DNA from: Bacillota bacterium | GTDB taxonomy: Bacteria; Bacillota; Limnochordia; Darwinibacteriales; Darwinibacteriaceae | Length of the DNA stretch: 42,203 nucleotides | Direction: 5' to 3' | Assembly: GCA_012518735.1 (NCBI GenBank) | Contig: JAAYRO010000147.1 | Location: 1 to 42,203, forward strand | Shown: positions 7,725 to 15,984 of the stretch, piece after piece | Position numbering within the stretch: the first letter of the stretch is position 1 | Layout: each line of letters starts with the position of its first letter | Translations under genes and position numbers: made by a program | Notes under the pieces: model-generated | What the model saw: only the letters and a program-made list of their open reading frames with translations | The model's database searches: none | Told to the model about the DNA's origin: nothing

Positions 7725-8432
7725 GTGACCCTAATGGAACAGACTCGAGACTTGATCCTCCGTTCTCAGAGTGGCGACTTAGACGCGCGCAGTATTCTGG
7801 TTGAACAGAACCTTCCTCTAGTGGCAAGTATTGTCCGCCGTTTTCTATACAGAGGTTTTGAATACGATGACCTGTTTCAAGTAGGGGCCCTTGGATTGAT
7901 AAAAGCAATTCAAGATTTTGATTTAGAGTATAATGTTCGTTTTTCCACCTACGCAGTTCCGAAAATTATTGGAGAGATAAAGAGATACATTCGAGAATCG
8001 TCAATGATTCGTATTTCCCGCTCCCTCAGAGAGCTGGCGTCAAGGGCAATTGGTGCTAAAGATCATCTTGCCAATGAATTGGGACGCTCTCCCACTATTT
8101 CTGAATTAGCCACCTATCTCAACGTAAGTCGGGAGGAACTGGTTACAGCACTAGATGCTGTAGCACCAGTCCAGTATTTACATGATACGATTTACGAAGG
8201 AGACGGAGACCGGCTTGAACTGGAGGATCTACTGTCAGTGGAAGACAACGAACAACAGATGTTACTAAAAAACGCACTAAAGAATCTTGACCCTCAATCC
8301 CGCCGAATCGTTCTCCTCCGTTATTTTGCAGAAAAGAGCCAAACAGAAGTGGCAAAAGTCCTTGGAATTTCCCAAGCTCAAGTGTCCCGAATTGAACAGC
8401 GAATTGTCCGTGAATTGCGGCACGAAATTTAA
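7725..8432 (+). CDS. sigF: RNA polymerase sporulation sigma factor F
   Basis: Sigma-70 region 2 (GFEYDDLFQVGALGLIKAIQDFD) and region 4 (SQTEVAKVLGISQAQVSRIEQR). Immediately follows spoIIAB. GTG 7725 or ATG 7734 start. Confidence 0.93.
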   Translation: MTLMEQTRDLILRSQSGDLDARSILVEQNLPLVASIVRRFLYRGFEYDDLFQVGALGLIKAIQDFDLEYNVRFSTYAVPKIIGEIKRYIRESSMIRISRSLRELASRAIGAKDHLANELGRSPTISELATYLNVSREELVTALDAVAPVQYLHDTIYEGDGDRLELEDLLSVEDNEQQMLLKNALKNLDPQSRRIVLLRYFAEKSQTEVAKVLGISQAQVSRIEQRIVRELRHEI

Positions 8433-9952: not shown

Positions 9953-9979
9953 GCCGCAGTTTCTGCGGCTCTTTTTTTT
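9953..9979 (+). terminator. Intrinsic terminator after GNAT gene
   Basis: GCCGCAG-TTT-CTGCGGC followed by TCTTTTTTTT. Confidence 0.85.
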
Positions 9980-10111: not shown

Positions 10112-10726
10112 ATGCTAGAATTTTTCGTCCTTGGTGGCCCAGTAATGATTCCTTTATTATTCTGCTCGATTTTCGCGGTTGCTGTTGGCATTGAAAGACT
10201 GTGGTATTTGCTGCGTTCACGTGTTGATACTGAGGACCTAATGGAAGACATTAGGCTTGCATTGGGACAGGGCAAAGTATTAGAAGCAATGCAGATCGCA
10301 AAGAAATCTCGAGGTCCGGTAGCTGCTGTATTAGCTGCAGGAATAGCTCACTATGACAAAGACAGAGAAGAGATTAAAGAACACATTGAAACAGTGGGGC
10401 GCGAAGAGATCTTTAAGATGGAGCGCCGAATGAACGTATTGGACACAATCGTGATGATTTCTCCATTACTCGGAATTTTAGGGACTGTGACTGGGATCAT
10501 CAAGAGTTTTAATGTAATGGCTGCACTCGAAGGGGTTAATCAAGCATCTGCTCTCAGCGCAGGAATCGCCGAGGCTTTGATTACAACTGCAGCAGGCTTG
10601 ATTATTGCCATCCCAACGATGGCCCTTTACTCTTATTTAAATGGTATCATTGATCGTAATACAGCCGATATGAGCAAGAGAGCGACGGAATTATTAACCA
10701 TCCTAGAGTCGAGGGGTGAGTTTTAG
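10112..10726 (+). CDS. exbB: MotA/TolQ/ExbB proton channel family protein
   Basis: N-terminal TM plus ISPLLGILGTVTGIIKSF...GIAEALITTAAGLIIAIP signature. Overlaps an exbD-like gene. Confidence 0.87.
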   Translation: MLEFFVLGGPVMIPLLFCSIFAVAVGIERLWYLLRSRVDTEDLMEDIRLALGQGKVLEAMQIAKKSRGPVAAVLAAGIAHYDKDREEIKEHIETVGREEIFKMERRMNVLDTIVMISPLLGILGTVTGIIKSFNVMAALEGVNQASALSAGIAEALITTAAGLIIAIPTMALYSYLNGIIDRNTADMSKRATELLTILESRGEF

Positions 10727-11130
10727 TGAATTTCCAGAGAAATAACAGAAGGGGTAGAAGTCCTGATATTCTACCCATGATTGATGTGGTATTCTTTCTG
10801 CTTGTGTTTTTCATGTTATTTACAACAATTAAGACCACTCCGTTTGGACTTGATGTGGAACTGCCAAAAGCAGTTACTGGTAATCCACAGCAAAACACTC
10901 AATTTGAGATAACAGTAAATCGGGATGGCGCATTTTATGTCAGTGGTAAAATGGTCACAGGGCCAGAACTACGGGCCCAACTAGAACAGCGCCTTCGCTC
11001 AAACCCAGATCTTTTTGTTATTGTTAAGGCGGACAAACAAGTCCGCTATGAACATGTAGTAAATGCTCTTGATCATGTTCGCAGCGTAGGTGGTTACAAA
11101 TTGGGGTTAGCTGTCGATCAAGGGTCCTAA
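10726..11130 (+). CDS. exbD: Biopolymer transport protein ExbD/TolR family
   Basis: PDILPMIDVVFFLLVFFMLFTTI TM/Asp signature; periplasmic VIVKADKQVRYEHVVNALDHVRSVG. 1-nt overlap with exbB. Confidence 0.88.
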   Translation: MNFQRNNRRGRSPDILPMIDVVFFLLVFFMLFTTIKTTPFGLDVELPKAVTGNPQQNTQFEITVNRDGAFYVSGKMVTGPELRAQLEQRLRSNPDLFVIVKADKQVRYEHVVNALDHVRSVGGYKLGLAVDQGS

Positions 11131-12120
11131 TTGAAGGGGGAGGATTATGTGTACAATCCGTACGGTGAAGAACAATCACTAAATAAATTCCTATTGATCT
11201 CTGTGGTTCTTCATGCCATCGTCTTCTTAACCTTCCCAAAATGGAATTCTTTCTTGATCTCAGATGTTCCGGGTATGGCAGATGGTGGGGTCATTCAAGT
11301 GATGCATATAGAGTCTTCTGTTAATCCACGACCGTCACCTATAACTGACCCCTTATCACAATCTACAATTCCTCGTGTTACAGAACCCCGTCCAACGCCA
11401 GAGTCAAAACCAACTGAGGCAGCAGTAGCCCAACCGAAACCTGCCGAGGTAGAAAAGCCCGTACTAGAACAGTCAAAACCTGCCTTAGCTTCCGAACCAG
11501 AGGAAGCTCCAGTTTTAGAAGAGCCTGTTCCGTACGAGCCAACTCCTGAAGAGACTGGAGAATCAGGCCCAGGAGAGATACTCACCTCTGAATCGGGAAC
11601 AGAAGCTGTTATTCAAGATGAATCTGAATCAAGAACCGTTATTGAACCACCAACGGAGCCGAAGCCAGAACCTACTCCACGACCGACCCAAACAGATTCT
11701 AGTGGTTCGGGTCATGGAATTCTTGGGGAACAAGACAATGTGGGAACAACACAGTCTGGAGAGGGAGAAGCAGAAACAGCTCCACCGGCCCCACCTCCAC
11801 CACCAAGTGGTCGTTCACTACACGTCGGCGGTGGGACTCCTTTGTACCCAAAGAACGCAGAACATGATGGGGTAGAAGGTACTGTAAAATTGGCTGCCAG
11901 TGTAGCTTCATCAGGAGAGATTATCTCCGTAGTGATTGTTGAATCTTCAGGCGATACCCGCCTGGATCAGCAGGCGTTAAGAACAATTCAGTTAGGTTGG
12001 AAGTTCAAAGATGCTCAGTACGATTATCTAATTGATCTAGAGGTCATATTCACACGACAGCAAGATGGATATACTACCGATGTGCAGTATGGCGAAGTAG
12101 AATGGATTAACGTTCCATAA
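11131..12120 (+). CDS. tonB: TonB family energy transducer
   Basis: N-terminal TM, long Pro/Glu-rich linker, C-terminal TonB_C-like domain (GGTPLYPKNAEHDGVEGTVKLAASVASSGEIISVVIVESSGDTRLDQQALRTI). Adjacent to exbBD. Confidence 0.85.
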   Translation: MKGEDYVYNPYGEEQSLNKFLLISVVLHAIVFLTFPKWNSFLISDVPGMADGGVIQVMHIESSVNPRPSPITDPLSQSTIPRVTEPRPTPESKPTEAAVAQPKPAEVEKPVLEQSKPALASEPEEAPVLEEPVPYEPTPEETGESGPGEILTSESGTEAVIQDESESRTVIEPPTEPKPEPTPRPTQTDSSGSGHGILGEQDNVGTTQSGEGEAETAPPAPPPPPSGRSLHVGGGTPLYPKNAEHDGVEGTVKLAASVASSGEIISVVIVESSGDTRLDQQALRTIQLGWKFKDAQYDYLIDLEVIFTRQQDGYTTDVQYGEVEWINVP

Positions 12121-12134
12121 GGAGGATAGAGAAA

Positions 12135-14162
12135 ATGCGGAGAAAGTTGTTAGTAGTGTTAGTCGTATTGCTATCTCTATCGCTCCCCGTTACTACAGAG
12201 GGTCAAACTATTGAGAGTAGCAAAATCGAGATTCGAAATGAATACATTCGGATTGTGGTCAACACATCTGAGGCGAACAAGGGAAGGTTTTCTGTTGGCA
12301 CTACTGGTGGAGACCCTGACCGAGATACAGATCAGAATAAGCATTTGATTTTTGGAGGGGACGAACCTTGGACGTCCTACACTACTGTACGTATTGGTAA
12401 TGATAACTGGGTCTACGGCAGCCCAACAGACCGTCGTGCCGGGCGAAAAGGCCAATATGGAGAAATGATTCTAGAGCCAACAATAATTGACGATGCCATC
12501 CACAGTGGATGGCAGTTAGGTCCTGTGGAGGTCAGGCAGATCTTGAGTTTTGCTCGGAGTACCACTACTGGACTCATGGATACTGCCAGAATTGAATATC
12601 AAGTGCACAATCGAGACTCTGTGTCTCATATGGTAGGGCTACGTGTGATGGTAGACACCATGCTGGGTGCCAATGACGGGGCGCCCTTTCGAGTAAATGA
12701 CCGGGCTTTATTGACGGATACAGTCTATTATGCCAATGAAATGCCCCAGTTTTGGCAAGCCTTTGACTCTTTATCTAATCCACAAGTCATGTCCCAGGGC
12801 ACCTTGAAAGGACCCGATGTCTCCACACCGGACCGAGTATATTTTACGAACTGGGGAAGCGTAGCCGATGACGTTTGGAACTTTGACTTTACTCCTGGGC
12901 GAGACTACACTCGAAAAGGAGAATTCGAGTTAGATAGTGCTATTGCCTTGTTTTGGGATCCAGTTCCACTGGGGCCAAATGAAACGAGAAGCTACGTAGC
13001 TCAGTACGGTCTGGGAGGAGTAACTATTGCCCCAGGAGATTTAGTGTTAGGCGTTACGTCGCCAGCACAGATCACAGCAGATGCAGAAGGATTCCAGACC
13101 TTCTCCATTATTGCCTATGTTCAGAACGCAGGCAGAGGAGAATCTAGGGATGTAACAGCTGAGATAAAATTGCCTCCAGGTTTAGAATTAGTAGGCAGTA
13201 GTCCTAAACGGAATCTAGGAAACCTTCAAGTAGGTGAGACAGAACAAACTGGCTGGCAGGTAAGAGCCGTCAGCAATGCTAGTGGAGTTCTAACATATGA
13301 AGTATCTGTCACAGCCATTAACAGCAAACCAAATCGGGTTCGACGTGATGTGACAGTTGTAAGTCCTGCCAAACTCAGAGTGTTCTTCAGTGGTCCTCCA
13401 GCTCTAGCCGTGGTAGATGAGAAATATAACCCTTCACCATTTGAAATCAAGGCTGAAATTCACAATGAAGGGGGAACACCAGCGTACCGCGGTATGTTTA
13501 GTGTTCTGCACCCCCTTGGGCTGGAATTGGCTAGTGGTGAAAGAACGCAGAAGTTTACAGGTCCTATTGAGCCAGGTGAAAAAGTTGAGTTAAGCTGGTA
13601 TCTAGAGCCAACTGGTATCTCTGGCCAACTACCTTACTCCTTAACTATCAGTTCAAGCGCGGGACAGGATCTTCAGAATAACTTCATTTTCGTACCTGAA
13701 CTGAATCCAAAAGTTTGGATAGATGAACCTGTAATTTACGGTGACCAATCAATTCGACCTGGAGATTACTTTTCCGTGTCCTTTTGGGCCACCAATATCA
13801 AGGATTTTACTGCAGCACACTTTGACGTCTCGTTCAATCCCAATGTTGTTGAAGTGGTTGGCAAAACACTGGACATTACCCAAGGTACTCTGTTTATTGA
13901 TGACAGTGTAACACCACCAAAACGGTTGCCTTGGACCATGCCTCAAGTCTATAATGACGAAGGTAAAATCATTGGAATCCAAGGAAACCGCGGTGCGGAC
14001 AAACCACTAACCATTTCGTATGGAACCTTAGTAACAATTCATTTTCGAGCTAAGGCTGTGGGAGAAACAGATATTGCTTTAGAGAACATACGCATCTGGG
14101 ACAGCGGTGGTTCTTTGGTTGACTTTGAATTGGTAGGTAGAGACATTAATGTTGAACCCTAG
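12135..14162 (+). CDS. Secreted protein with C-terminal cohesin-like domain and CARDB/Ig-like repeats
   Basis: Signal peptide MRRKLLVVLVVLLSLSLPVTTEG; internal beta-rich repeats; C-terminal VRPGDYFSVSFWATNIKDFTAAHFDVSFNPNVVEVV...LTISYGTLVTIHFRAKAVGETDIALENIRI, which resembles cohesin domains. SD aaggagg. Confidence 0.65.
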   Translation: MRRKLLVVLVVLLSLSLPVTTEGQTIESSKIEIRNEYIRIVVNTSEANKGRFSVGTTGGDPDRDTDQNKHLIFGGDEPWTSYTTVRIGNDNWVYGSPTDRRAGRKGQYGEMILEPTIIDDAIHSGWQLGPVEVRQILSFARSTTTGLMDTARIEYQVHNRDSVSHMVGLRVMVDTMLGANDGAPFRVNDRALLTDTVYYANEMPQFWQAFDSLSNPQVMSQGTLKGPDVSTPDRVYFTNWGSVADDVWNFDFTPGRDYTRKGEFELDSAIALFWDPVPLGPNETRSYVAQYGLGGVTIAPGDLVLGVTSPAQITADAEGFQTFSIIAYVQNAGRGESRDVTAEIKLPPGLELVGSSPKRNLGNLQVGETEQTGWQVRAVSNASGVLTYEVSVTAINSKPNRVRRDVTVVSPAKLRVFFSGPPALAVVDEKYNPSPFEIKAEIHNEGGTPAYRGMFSVLHPLGLELASGERTQKFTGPIEPGEKVELSWYLEPTGISGQLPYSLTISSSAGQDLQNNFIFVPELNPKVWIDEPVIYGDQSIRPGDYFSVSFWATNIKDFTAAHFDVSFNPNVVEVVGKTLDITQGTLFIDDSVTPPKRLPWTMPQVYNDEGKIIGIQGNRGADKPLTISYGTLVTIHFRAKAVGETDIALENIRIWDSGGSLVDFELVGRDINVEP

Positions 14163-14178: not shown

Positions 14179-15426
14179 ATGAAAAGAAAGTCATTTACTT
14201 GTTTTGTCTTAATTGCTTTACTATTTAGTACTATTGGAATTCCTCAAGTCTCAGCTAAACTAACAGATGTACCAACAGATCACTGGGCATATCATGCCGT
14301 GGCAACTCTTGTAAACAAAGGTTACCTAGCAGTATATGAAGATGGAACATTCCAAGGTACAAGGGCGGTTGATCGTTATACCCTAGCTGTAACCTTAGCT
14401 CGAATTCTCGACGAGATTGAAGCAGGTCGTGTTCAAGGTTCAGTAGACGATCTCTCCCTTATTCGAGAGTTATCTTCAGAATTTCGGGAAGAACTGGTCG
14501 TATGGTATGCTGATCGAGATGCACTGGACAGCAAACTGACCGCCATCCAAAAAAGCAGCGTAGCAACGGAAGATAGGGTAAACCGTGTTGTTTCGGCCCA
14601 AGTTGAACTGCAGGAAGAAGTAGAGAAGATTAAGGCCGATTTGTTGAGCGAAATACAGCGACGTGATAATCTAGCAGCAGAGCAGCAGGTAGAGCAGCAA
14701 TTCGCAATAGAACAGCAGGCTCAGCAGATCAGTAATTATGCTGCTCAGATTGATGAACATAAAGCACGCCTAGATGAACTGCTGACAGCCATTGTTCAAC
14801 TGGAAGATGAGCTTCTTAAACAAAAAACAGCAGTTGGTGGATTAGAGAACTGGGCTGGGGAAAAAAGTGCAGTTTTTGCCGCTCTCCAGAATACGGATGA
14901 ACAGCTGCAAGAAGAAACGATGACACTGCGGCTGCGCCTTGACGAACTTGGAGAACTCAGTTCGGCAGATGTTGCAGCACTGCAGGCTGCCTATGACGAA
15001 CTACTAGGTTCTTTAGAAGTATCTCTGGCACAGGTAACCCAACTGAATGAGAGAAACCTTGAGATGGAAAAAGACATGCAGAATCTGGCCGTACTTTTAC
15101 AGCGAGAGACCCAAAGAAGGGAAGATCTGAGTGCTCAAATCGAAACAGCTCAGCACAATCTCCAGCAGTTGGAGGAACAGATCGGACTCTCGGAGGAACA
15201 GCTATCTGAACTCAGCAATCGAGTAAGCTCCGATGTAAGTGTTCAGATGAACGCGGCCCTTATTCGAGAACAACGCTTAGAGCGGCAGATTAAAGAACTC
15301 CAAGAAGAATTTGCCAGCTACAAAGAAACGGCAGAGAGTAAGCAGAAATCATCGAAAACACTGGCATCTATTGCATTAGCAGTTGCAGCTATCGGTGTAG
15401 TTATTGGTTTTCTCCCTGGTAATTAA
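14179..15426 (+). CDS. SLH-domain, long coiled-coil protein with C-terminal TM helix (Omp-alpha-like architecture)
   Basis: Signal peptide; SLH domain LTDVPTDHWAYHAVATLVNKGYLAVYEDGTFQGTRAVDRYTLAVTLARIL; about 300 aa Gln/Glu/Leu-rich heptad-like region; hydrophobic C-terminus TLASIALAVAAIGVVIGFLPGN. Confidence 0.78.
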   Translation: MKRKSFTCFVLIALLFSTIGIPQVSAKLTDVPTDHWAYHAVATLVNKGYLAVYEDGTFQGTRAVDRYTLAVTLARILDEIEAGRVQGSVDDLSLIRELSSEFREELVVWYADRDALDSKLTAIQKSSVATEDRVNRVVSAQVELQEEVEKIKADLLSEIQRRDNLAAEQQVEQQFAIEQQAQQISNYAAQIDEHKARLDELLTAIVQLEDELLKQKTAVGGLENWAGEKSAVFAALQNTDEQLQEETMTLRLRLDELGELSSADVAALQAAYDELLGSLEVSLAQVTQLNERNLEMEKDMQNLAVLLQRETQRREDLSAQIETAQHNLQQLEEQIGLSEEQLSELSNRVSSDVSVQMNAALIREQRLERQIKELQEEFASYKETAESKQKSSKTLASIALAVAAIGVVIGFLPGN

Positions 15427-15441
15427 GGAATTTGGTAACCG

Positions 15442-15477
15442 GCAGGACAGCTCAAAAAAGCTGTCCTGCTTTTTTCT
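15442..15477 (+). terminator. Intrinsic terminator after SLH gene
   Basis: GCAGGACAGCT-CAAAAA-AGCTGTCCTGC followed by TTTTTTCTT. Confidence 0.88.
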
Positions 15478-15537: not shown

Positions 15538-15984
15538 ATGCCCATGAAACCTCAAGAGTATCAGAATCTAGTAAAGAAAAATCTTCCCAAGACGCCTATC
15601 TGGAAAAACGTCCTTCTCGCATTCCTCATTGGCGGCGTCATCTGCCTCATTGGCCAAGGTGTACTCAACTTTGCCATCACCATTGAAGAGACAAAAGAGG
15701 AGGCAGCTGCCGTTACATTAGCGATAATGATTCTCATTGGATCAATCCTTACAGGAATTGGGATTTACGATGAAATAGCAGAAATAGGAGGGGCAGGCGC
15801 TGCAATACCTATTACGGGATTCTCCAATACTGTCACAGCAGCTGCCATGGAATTTCGGCGAGAAGGTTTCTTGTTAGGAATGGGAGCTAAAATGTTTATT
15901 ATTGCTGGTCCTGTTTTGGTCTACGGAATTTTATCTGGTTTTATTGTAGCCCTCATAAAAAGCGTCATTCTCGGTCTTTTCTAG
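15538..15984 (+). CDS. spoVAC: Stage V sporulation protein AC
   Basis: SpoVAC/AE membrane family (GGVICLIGQGVLNF, IGGAGAAIPITGFSNTVTAAAMEFRREG), followed by spoVAD and spoVAE. Confidence 0.92.
   Translation: MPMKPQEYQNLVKKNLPKTPIWKNVLLAFLIGGVICLIGQGVLNFAITIEETKEEAAAVTLAIMILIGSILTGIGIYDEIAEIGGAGAAIPITGFSNTVTAAAMEFRREGFLLGMGAKMFIIAGPVLVYGILSGFIVALIKSVILGLF

Follow-up and report, generated by a model that had tools for sequence, protein, structure and literature searches.

The window, the whole stretch of 42,203 nucleotides that was analysed, contains at 14179..15426 (forward strand, as for the parts of the five-gene unit given below) a gene for a protein of 415 residues with an SLH motif, a coiled coil and a C-terminal helix. 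The ORF is real: it has an ATG start, and an AGGAGG ribosome-binding site lies in the 16 bp between this start and the upstream stop. The gene is the last of a set of five. It is preceded by an ExbB/TolQ-family motor channel of 204 aa (10112..10726; PF01618, E 9e-32), an ExbD/TolR-family stator of 134 aa with an invariant Asp20 (10726..11130; PF02472, E 4e-30), a TonB/TolA-family force transducer composed of an N-terminal SxxxH anchor, a Pro-rich spacer and a TonB_C domain (11131..12120; PF03544, E 9e-15), and COH, an exported all-beta rod of 675 aa characterised by Pfam, AF2 and fold search (12135..14162). Two intrinsic terminators enclose exactly these five genes. The upstream one (9953..9969) has a 7-bp stem and a T8 tail, while the one closing the unit (15441..15470) has a 12-bp stem and a T-rich tail, with spoVAC beyond it.

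The original prediction placed the gene between sigF and spoVA. The position is true, as sigF (at 7725) and spoVAC (at 15538) flank it, but six genes (PHP, GNAT, ExbB, ExbD, TonB and COH) intervene after sigF, and the terminators separate the unit from both neighbours. The implied tie to sigF and spoVA did not hold, since the gene is part of an ExbB-ExbD-TonB-COH-SLH/coil operon whose order is kept without sporulation genes. Elsewhere in the class, families have cheW/fliM or different genes downstream instead of spoVA, and the five genes are still together. A connection of the SLH/coil gene with sporulation was therefore rejected, both by the terminators and by the contexts outside the class that lack sporulation genes.

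The SLH/coil protein starts with a signal peptide (residues 1-26; 14179..14256), read by eye, which ends in VSA-K at residue 26. A single SLH motif follows (residues 28-66, including W36 and Y38; 14260..14376), detected by Pfam above its cut-off (PF00395, E 1.5e-5) and by alignment to the SLH of OmpM and SlpA. The coiled coil (residues 89-390; 14443..15348) lacks Pro and Cys and shows a heptad peak at 3.50 residues, a value reached by 0 of 300 shuffles. AF2 predicts two long helices, 89-230 and 241-410, and the break between them (231-240) adjoins a conserved LENWAGEK motif; Foldseek gave no matches to the coil. The C-terminal hydrophobic helix (residues 395-412; 15361..15414), seen both as a hydrophobic stretch and in the AF2 model, comprises 18 residues starting at 395 and stops 3 residues short of the C-terminus.

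This helix is kept no more than 9 residues from the end in all 55 complete class orthologues, at identities down to ~25%, and 22 further proteins beyond the class set also have a C-terminal helix. The SLH motif was present in 21/21 SLH/coil proteins scanned across the phylum, and short versions outside the class (213-246 aa) still have both the SLH and the C-terminal helix. Across genomes the length of the coil varies between about 100 and more than 1300 residues, with both ends conserved; long coils, of about 700-1340 residues, are found at L092:9861-14303, L091:7678-10191 and L163:8987-11710. Since the C-terminal helix equals the inner-membrane helix of ExbD in hydrophobicity (KD 2.28 vs 2.42), this measure cannot place it, and we dropped this property as proof of outer-membrane insertion. 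Among the 55 class orthologues there are on average 2.6 K/R before the helix and 0.33 after it, a bias that speaks only weakly against the inner membrane. The helix may plausibly insert into the outer membrane.

The protein resembles, in its layout, Omp-alpha/OmpA1 (TM0477) from Thermotoga maritima, as both consist of a signal peptide, one SLH, a coil of about 300 residues and a hydrophobic C-terminus. The Thermotoga protein, with a coil of about 316 residues, has been proposed to be a spacer from the wall to the outer sheath (PMC3387000). Its gene adjoins the porin gene ompB, whereas the gene described here adjoins TonB-operon genes and spoVAC. The closest solved relatives are OmpM from Veillonella and SlpA from Deinococcus, related in the SLH and the start of the coil (E 1e-14 to 1e-10). 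W36 and Y38, in an HWAY motif, align with W34 and Y36 of VpOmpM1 from Veillonella. A tyrosine at Y36 is reported to be typical of diderm Firmicute OmpM, and both SlpA and OmpM are trimers with one SLH per chain running into the coil (PMC10628300). OmpM differs in ending in a beta-barrel, while the SLH/coil protein ends in a helix and its AF2 model contains helices only. The original prediction of a 415-residue protein with signal peptide, one SLH, coil and C-terminal hydrophobic helix was thus confirmed by Pfam, heptad period and AF2 (the signal peptide by eye). Its assignment to an Omp-alpha-like layout holds with the Pfam SLH, the heptad coil and the C-terminal helix, and its exclusion of the OmpM layout agrees with a model free of beta-barrel.

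Regarding the motor, ExbB orthologues across the class are 46-81% identical. In 20 orthologues, D20 of ExbD and H28 of the transducer are invariant and S24 of the transducer is nearly so; the TonB_C domain was found in 16 of the 20 transducers. According to these conserved residues, the TonB-like protein of the operon is likely to be a working force transducer. ExbB and ExbD of the operon match the TolQ/TolR models best. However, receptor-linked ExbB/ExbD copies do the same, so that these scores do not discriminate, and they were dropped as proof of Tol identity.

In COH, a conserved N-terminal domain leads into NEW3/CARDB-like Ig domains, which are followed by a cohesin-like domain. The N-terminal domain, about 270 residues, has no Pfam match, and the AF2 model of the protein is all-beta (pLDDT 86.6). 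Foldseek found Ig-type rods only, with a weak overall fit (TM about 0.2), and TolB was not among the best 50 matches. COH as a TolB homologue is ruled out, as the fold search shows no link to TolB; it holds TolB's place in the gene order and nothing beyond. A COH-like N-terminal domain also occurs within very large ORFs (about 1500-2600 aa) of genomes without Omp85 (G247:C1:395163, G301:C44:108194, G083:C29:103657 and G285:C1:7144).

We ran a COH profile over 399 genomes of the phylum, counting full-length COH. It was present in 88 of them and Omp85 in 103. Both were found together in 87 genomes, COH alone in one (G426), Omp85 alone in 16 and neither in 295 (Fisher 5e-70, a statistic that ignores phylogeny). 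Of the 16 genomes with Omp85 only, fourteen belong to three families; of the other two, one is incomplete and one has a weak match. Our guess is that these exceptions are probably Negativicutes. Outside the class, 20 family representatives show the order ExbB-ExbD-TonB-COH-SLH/coil, on one strand, in unrelated contexts and at GC contents of 29-69%. They include Halanaerobium praevalens (G293; operon at about 1,120,511-1,125,315) and one locus (L165) in which the contig stops inside the transducer gene, so that the motor genes lie beyond its end. The five-gene order is kept at all intact loci that were inspected, those of the class included. COH adjoins the SLH/coil gene in 83 of the 87 loci holding both, mostly within 75 bp, some of these loci being repeat views of one genome; in the remaining 4, the two ORFs are side by side and overlap because the ORF start was called too far upstream. 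A true absence of the SLH/coil gene in four genomes (G014, G055, G045 and G026) was discarded, as contig ends account for the gap. Nearly all two-membraned Bacillota sampled, three families aside, carry the five-gene set, a conserved operon tightly linked to Omp85.

By gene content, the organism of the window is a diderm with an LPS outer membrane. Its genome has one BamA/Omp85 (contig G000:C60) beside OmpH-like genes, and close to it are ORFs for a 729-aa LptD-like protein and for LptA/C-like, LptB, LptF/G-like and LpxB-like proteins, the Lpt and Lpx names being read from the sequence and not from a family search. With one BamA, an LptD-like protein, further Lpt genes and copies of OmpH, the genome does not lack outer-membrane genes, a lack that would have refuted the original prediction. 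Omp85 was found in 25 of the 26 genomes of the search among relatives, and Limnochordia have been described as diderm, with an outer membrane seen in electron micrographs (PMC11456536). In relatives, OmpM has a gene of its own, as in L077, where it encodes 719 aa about 14 kb from BamA. It was not found in the window's own assembly, perhaps as contig C60 ends there. The outer-membrane gene cluster also encodes a membrane protein of 724 aa (L075:3587-5761), next to an ABC ATPase and near the LptB- and LpxB-like genes.

None of the 37 genomes in the order has a plug-type TonB receptor and 9 of 73 in the class have one; a TonB receptor is missing from 58 of the 88 COH genomes. Where receptors exist, they frequently have their own motor: within the class, ExbB/ExbD lie beside the receptor in 6 of the 7 clusters examined and are about 35% identical to those of the operon, and outside it 7 of 12 receptor stretches examined have a separate pair. 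Receptor clusters of this kind (L123-L128, from G034, G036, G056, G043, G033 and G035) also include, where the stretch is long enough, a TonB-type protein and a small exported protein; their ExbB is about 35% identical to that of the operon. TolB is essentially absent, with one weak TolB_N match in the 399 genomes of the phylum. OmpA-domain matches in the class, judging from those examined, lie mostly beside MotA and correspond to MotB rather than Pal. Since receptors are scarce, TolB_N is nearly absent and the OmpA-domain proteins are mostly MotB, the five-gene unit is not a standard system of either the Ton or the Tol-Pal kind.

The best reading of these data is that the unit could be a proton-driven, Tol-Pal-like system with the SLH/coil/helix protein in Pal's place. 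We give about even odds to this protein being the tether from wall to outer membrane in a trans-envelope machine of five genes in diderm Bacillota, three families aside. The order of roles is that of Tol-Pal (proton channel, stator, force transducer, envelope protein and wall-binding tether of outer-membrane type), and the TolQ/TolR/TolA-type motor and transducer share an operon with the tether. In contrast, COH is an Ig/cohesin-like rod and not the beta-propeller of TolB, and the tether has an SLH and a C-terminal helix, while Pal is a lipoprotein with an OmpA-type domain. We hypothesize that the tether is exported and oligomerises through its coil, probably as a trimer like OmpM and SlpA, so that one SLH motif per chain would grip peptidoglycan or polymers attached to it and the C-terminal helix would enter the outer membrane. 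ExbB/ExbD would use proton flow to move the TonB-like protein. With its C-terminal domain, the latter could span the periplasm to reach the COH rod, the tether or both, and pull or relocate the tether. The drive on the tether would pass through COH, in analogy to TolQRA acting on Pal through TolB. Such a machine would probably serve to hold the outer membrane and draw it in as cells grow and divide. Counting against this reading, Veillonella OmpM is a proven tether and OmpM coexists with the unit in relatives. The wide variation in coil length also counts against it, being odd for a fixed spacer.

Alternatively, the protein could be a passive rod of Omp-alpha type that links wall and outer membrane and only shares a transcript with a Ton motor serving another purpose. 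Its layout equals that of Thermotoga OmpA1/Omp-alpha (PMC3387000) and the length of its coil varies freely. However, it stays next to COH and the motor in families and contexts that differ widely. Co-expression alone is a poor explanation for this, and we consider such a rod unlikely. Of the original prediction, an outer membrane tethered by a helical spacer, the diderm setting holds, while a motor-coupled part is more likely than a passive spacer, given that the five-gene order is kept in contexts without sporulation genes. Motor and transducer belong to the families of the Ton system and keep the motor residues, and it might also be that ExbB/ExbD/TonB energise uptake or release via a plug-less outer-membrane protein such as OmpM, COH and the SLH/coil protein positioning the TonB-like protein. 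The TonB_C domain with its Pro-rich spacer, the OmpM porins of relatives and a cohesin-like domain suggestive of contact with a ligand or glycan would fit this transport role. Yet the order lacks a plug-type partner receptor, most receptor clusters examined in relatives use other ExbBD copies and the conserved unit includes no transport gene, making transport improbable in our opinion.

It could also be argued that the C-terminal helix lies in the inner membrane, the protein tying the motor or the inner membrane to peptidoglycan and never reaching the outer membrane. The helix has the hydrophobicity of inner-membrane helices, and the coil break would permit a hairpin. The lengths of the arms on either side of it correlate (rho 0.72), though the hinge is poorly defined in distant members. 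Against this, K/R residues are placed before the helix and hardly after it, contrary to the positive-inside rule for an N-out helix, and the unit is nearly restricted to genomes with Omp85. We regard an inner-membrane anchor as very unlikely.

In the open-access literature searched we found no description of the five-gene unit. Tol-Pal has been reported only in Gracilicutes and Ton, among diderm Firmicutes, only in Negativicutes (PMC12204202), and 'atypical diderms' without pal and tolB have been described (PMC8871954). In Halothermothrix orenii, ExbB/ExbD/TonB without receptors were noted in 2009 as proteins that 'may have a different function' (PMC2626281). An operon in nearly all other diderm Bacillota sampled would fill the Tol-Pal/Ton gap left by these surveys and would give a function to the receptor-less proteins unexplained in H. 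orenii since then. It is tempting to propose, if tentatively and at just under even odds, that diderm Bacillota outside the three Omp85-bearing families share an undescribed tethering system driven by proton motive force. This would be a functional counterpart of Tol-Pal, with an Ig/cohesin-type rod instead of TolB and the SLH/coil/helix protein instead of Pal, having arisen separately from Tol-Pal or before it. If this is true, diderm Bacillota may have a motor-driven mechanism of their own that keeps the outer membrane attached to the cell wall, which would bear on how they hold, divide and repeatedly lost this membrane.

Other SLH proteins were observed in this search. An extra short SLH/coil/helix paralogue lies near the operon at two loci (L156:11302-11994 and L158:2032-2766), and the genome of the window encodes a second SLH protein (L001:1105-2268, on G000:C28) of 387 aa, with two SLH motifs and without the HWAY tyrosine.
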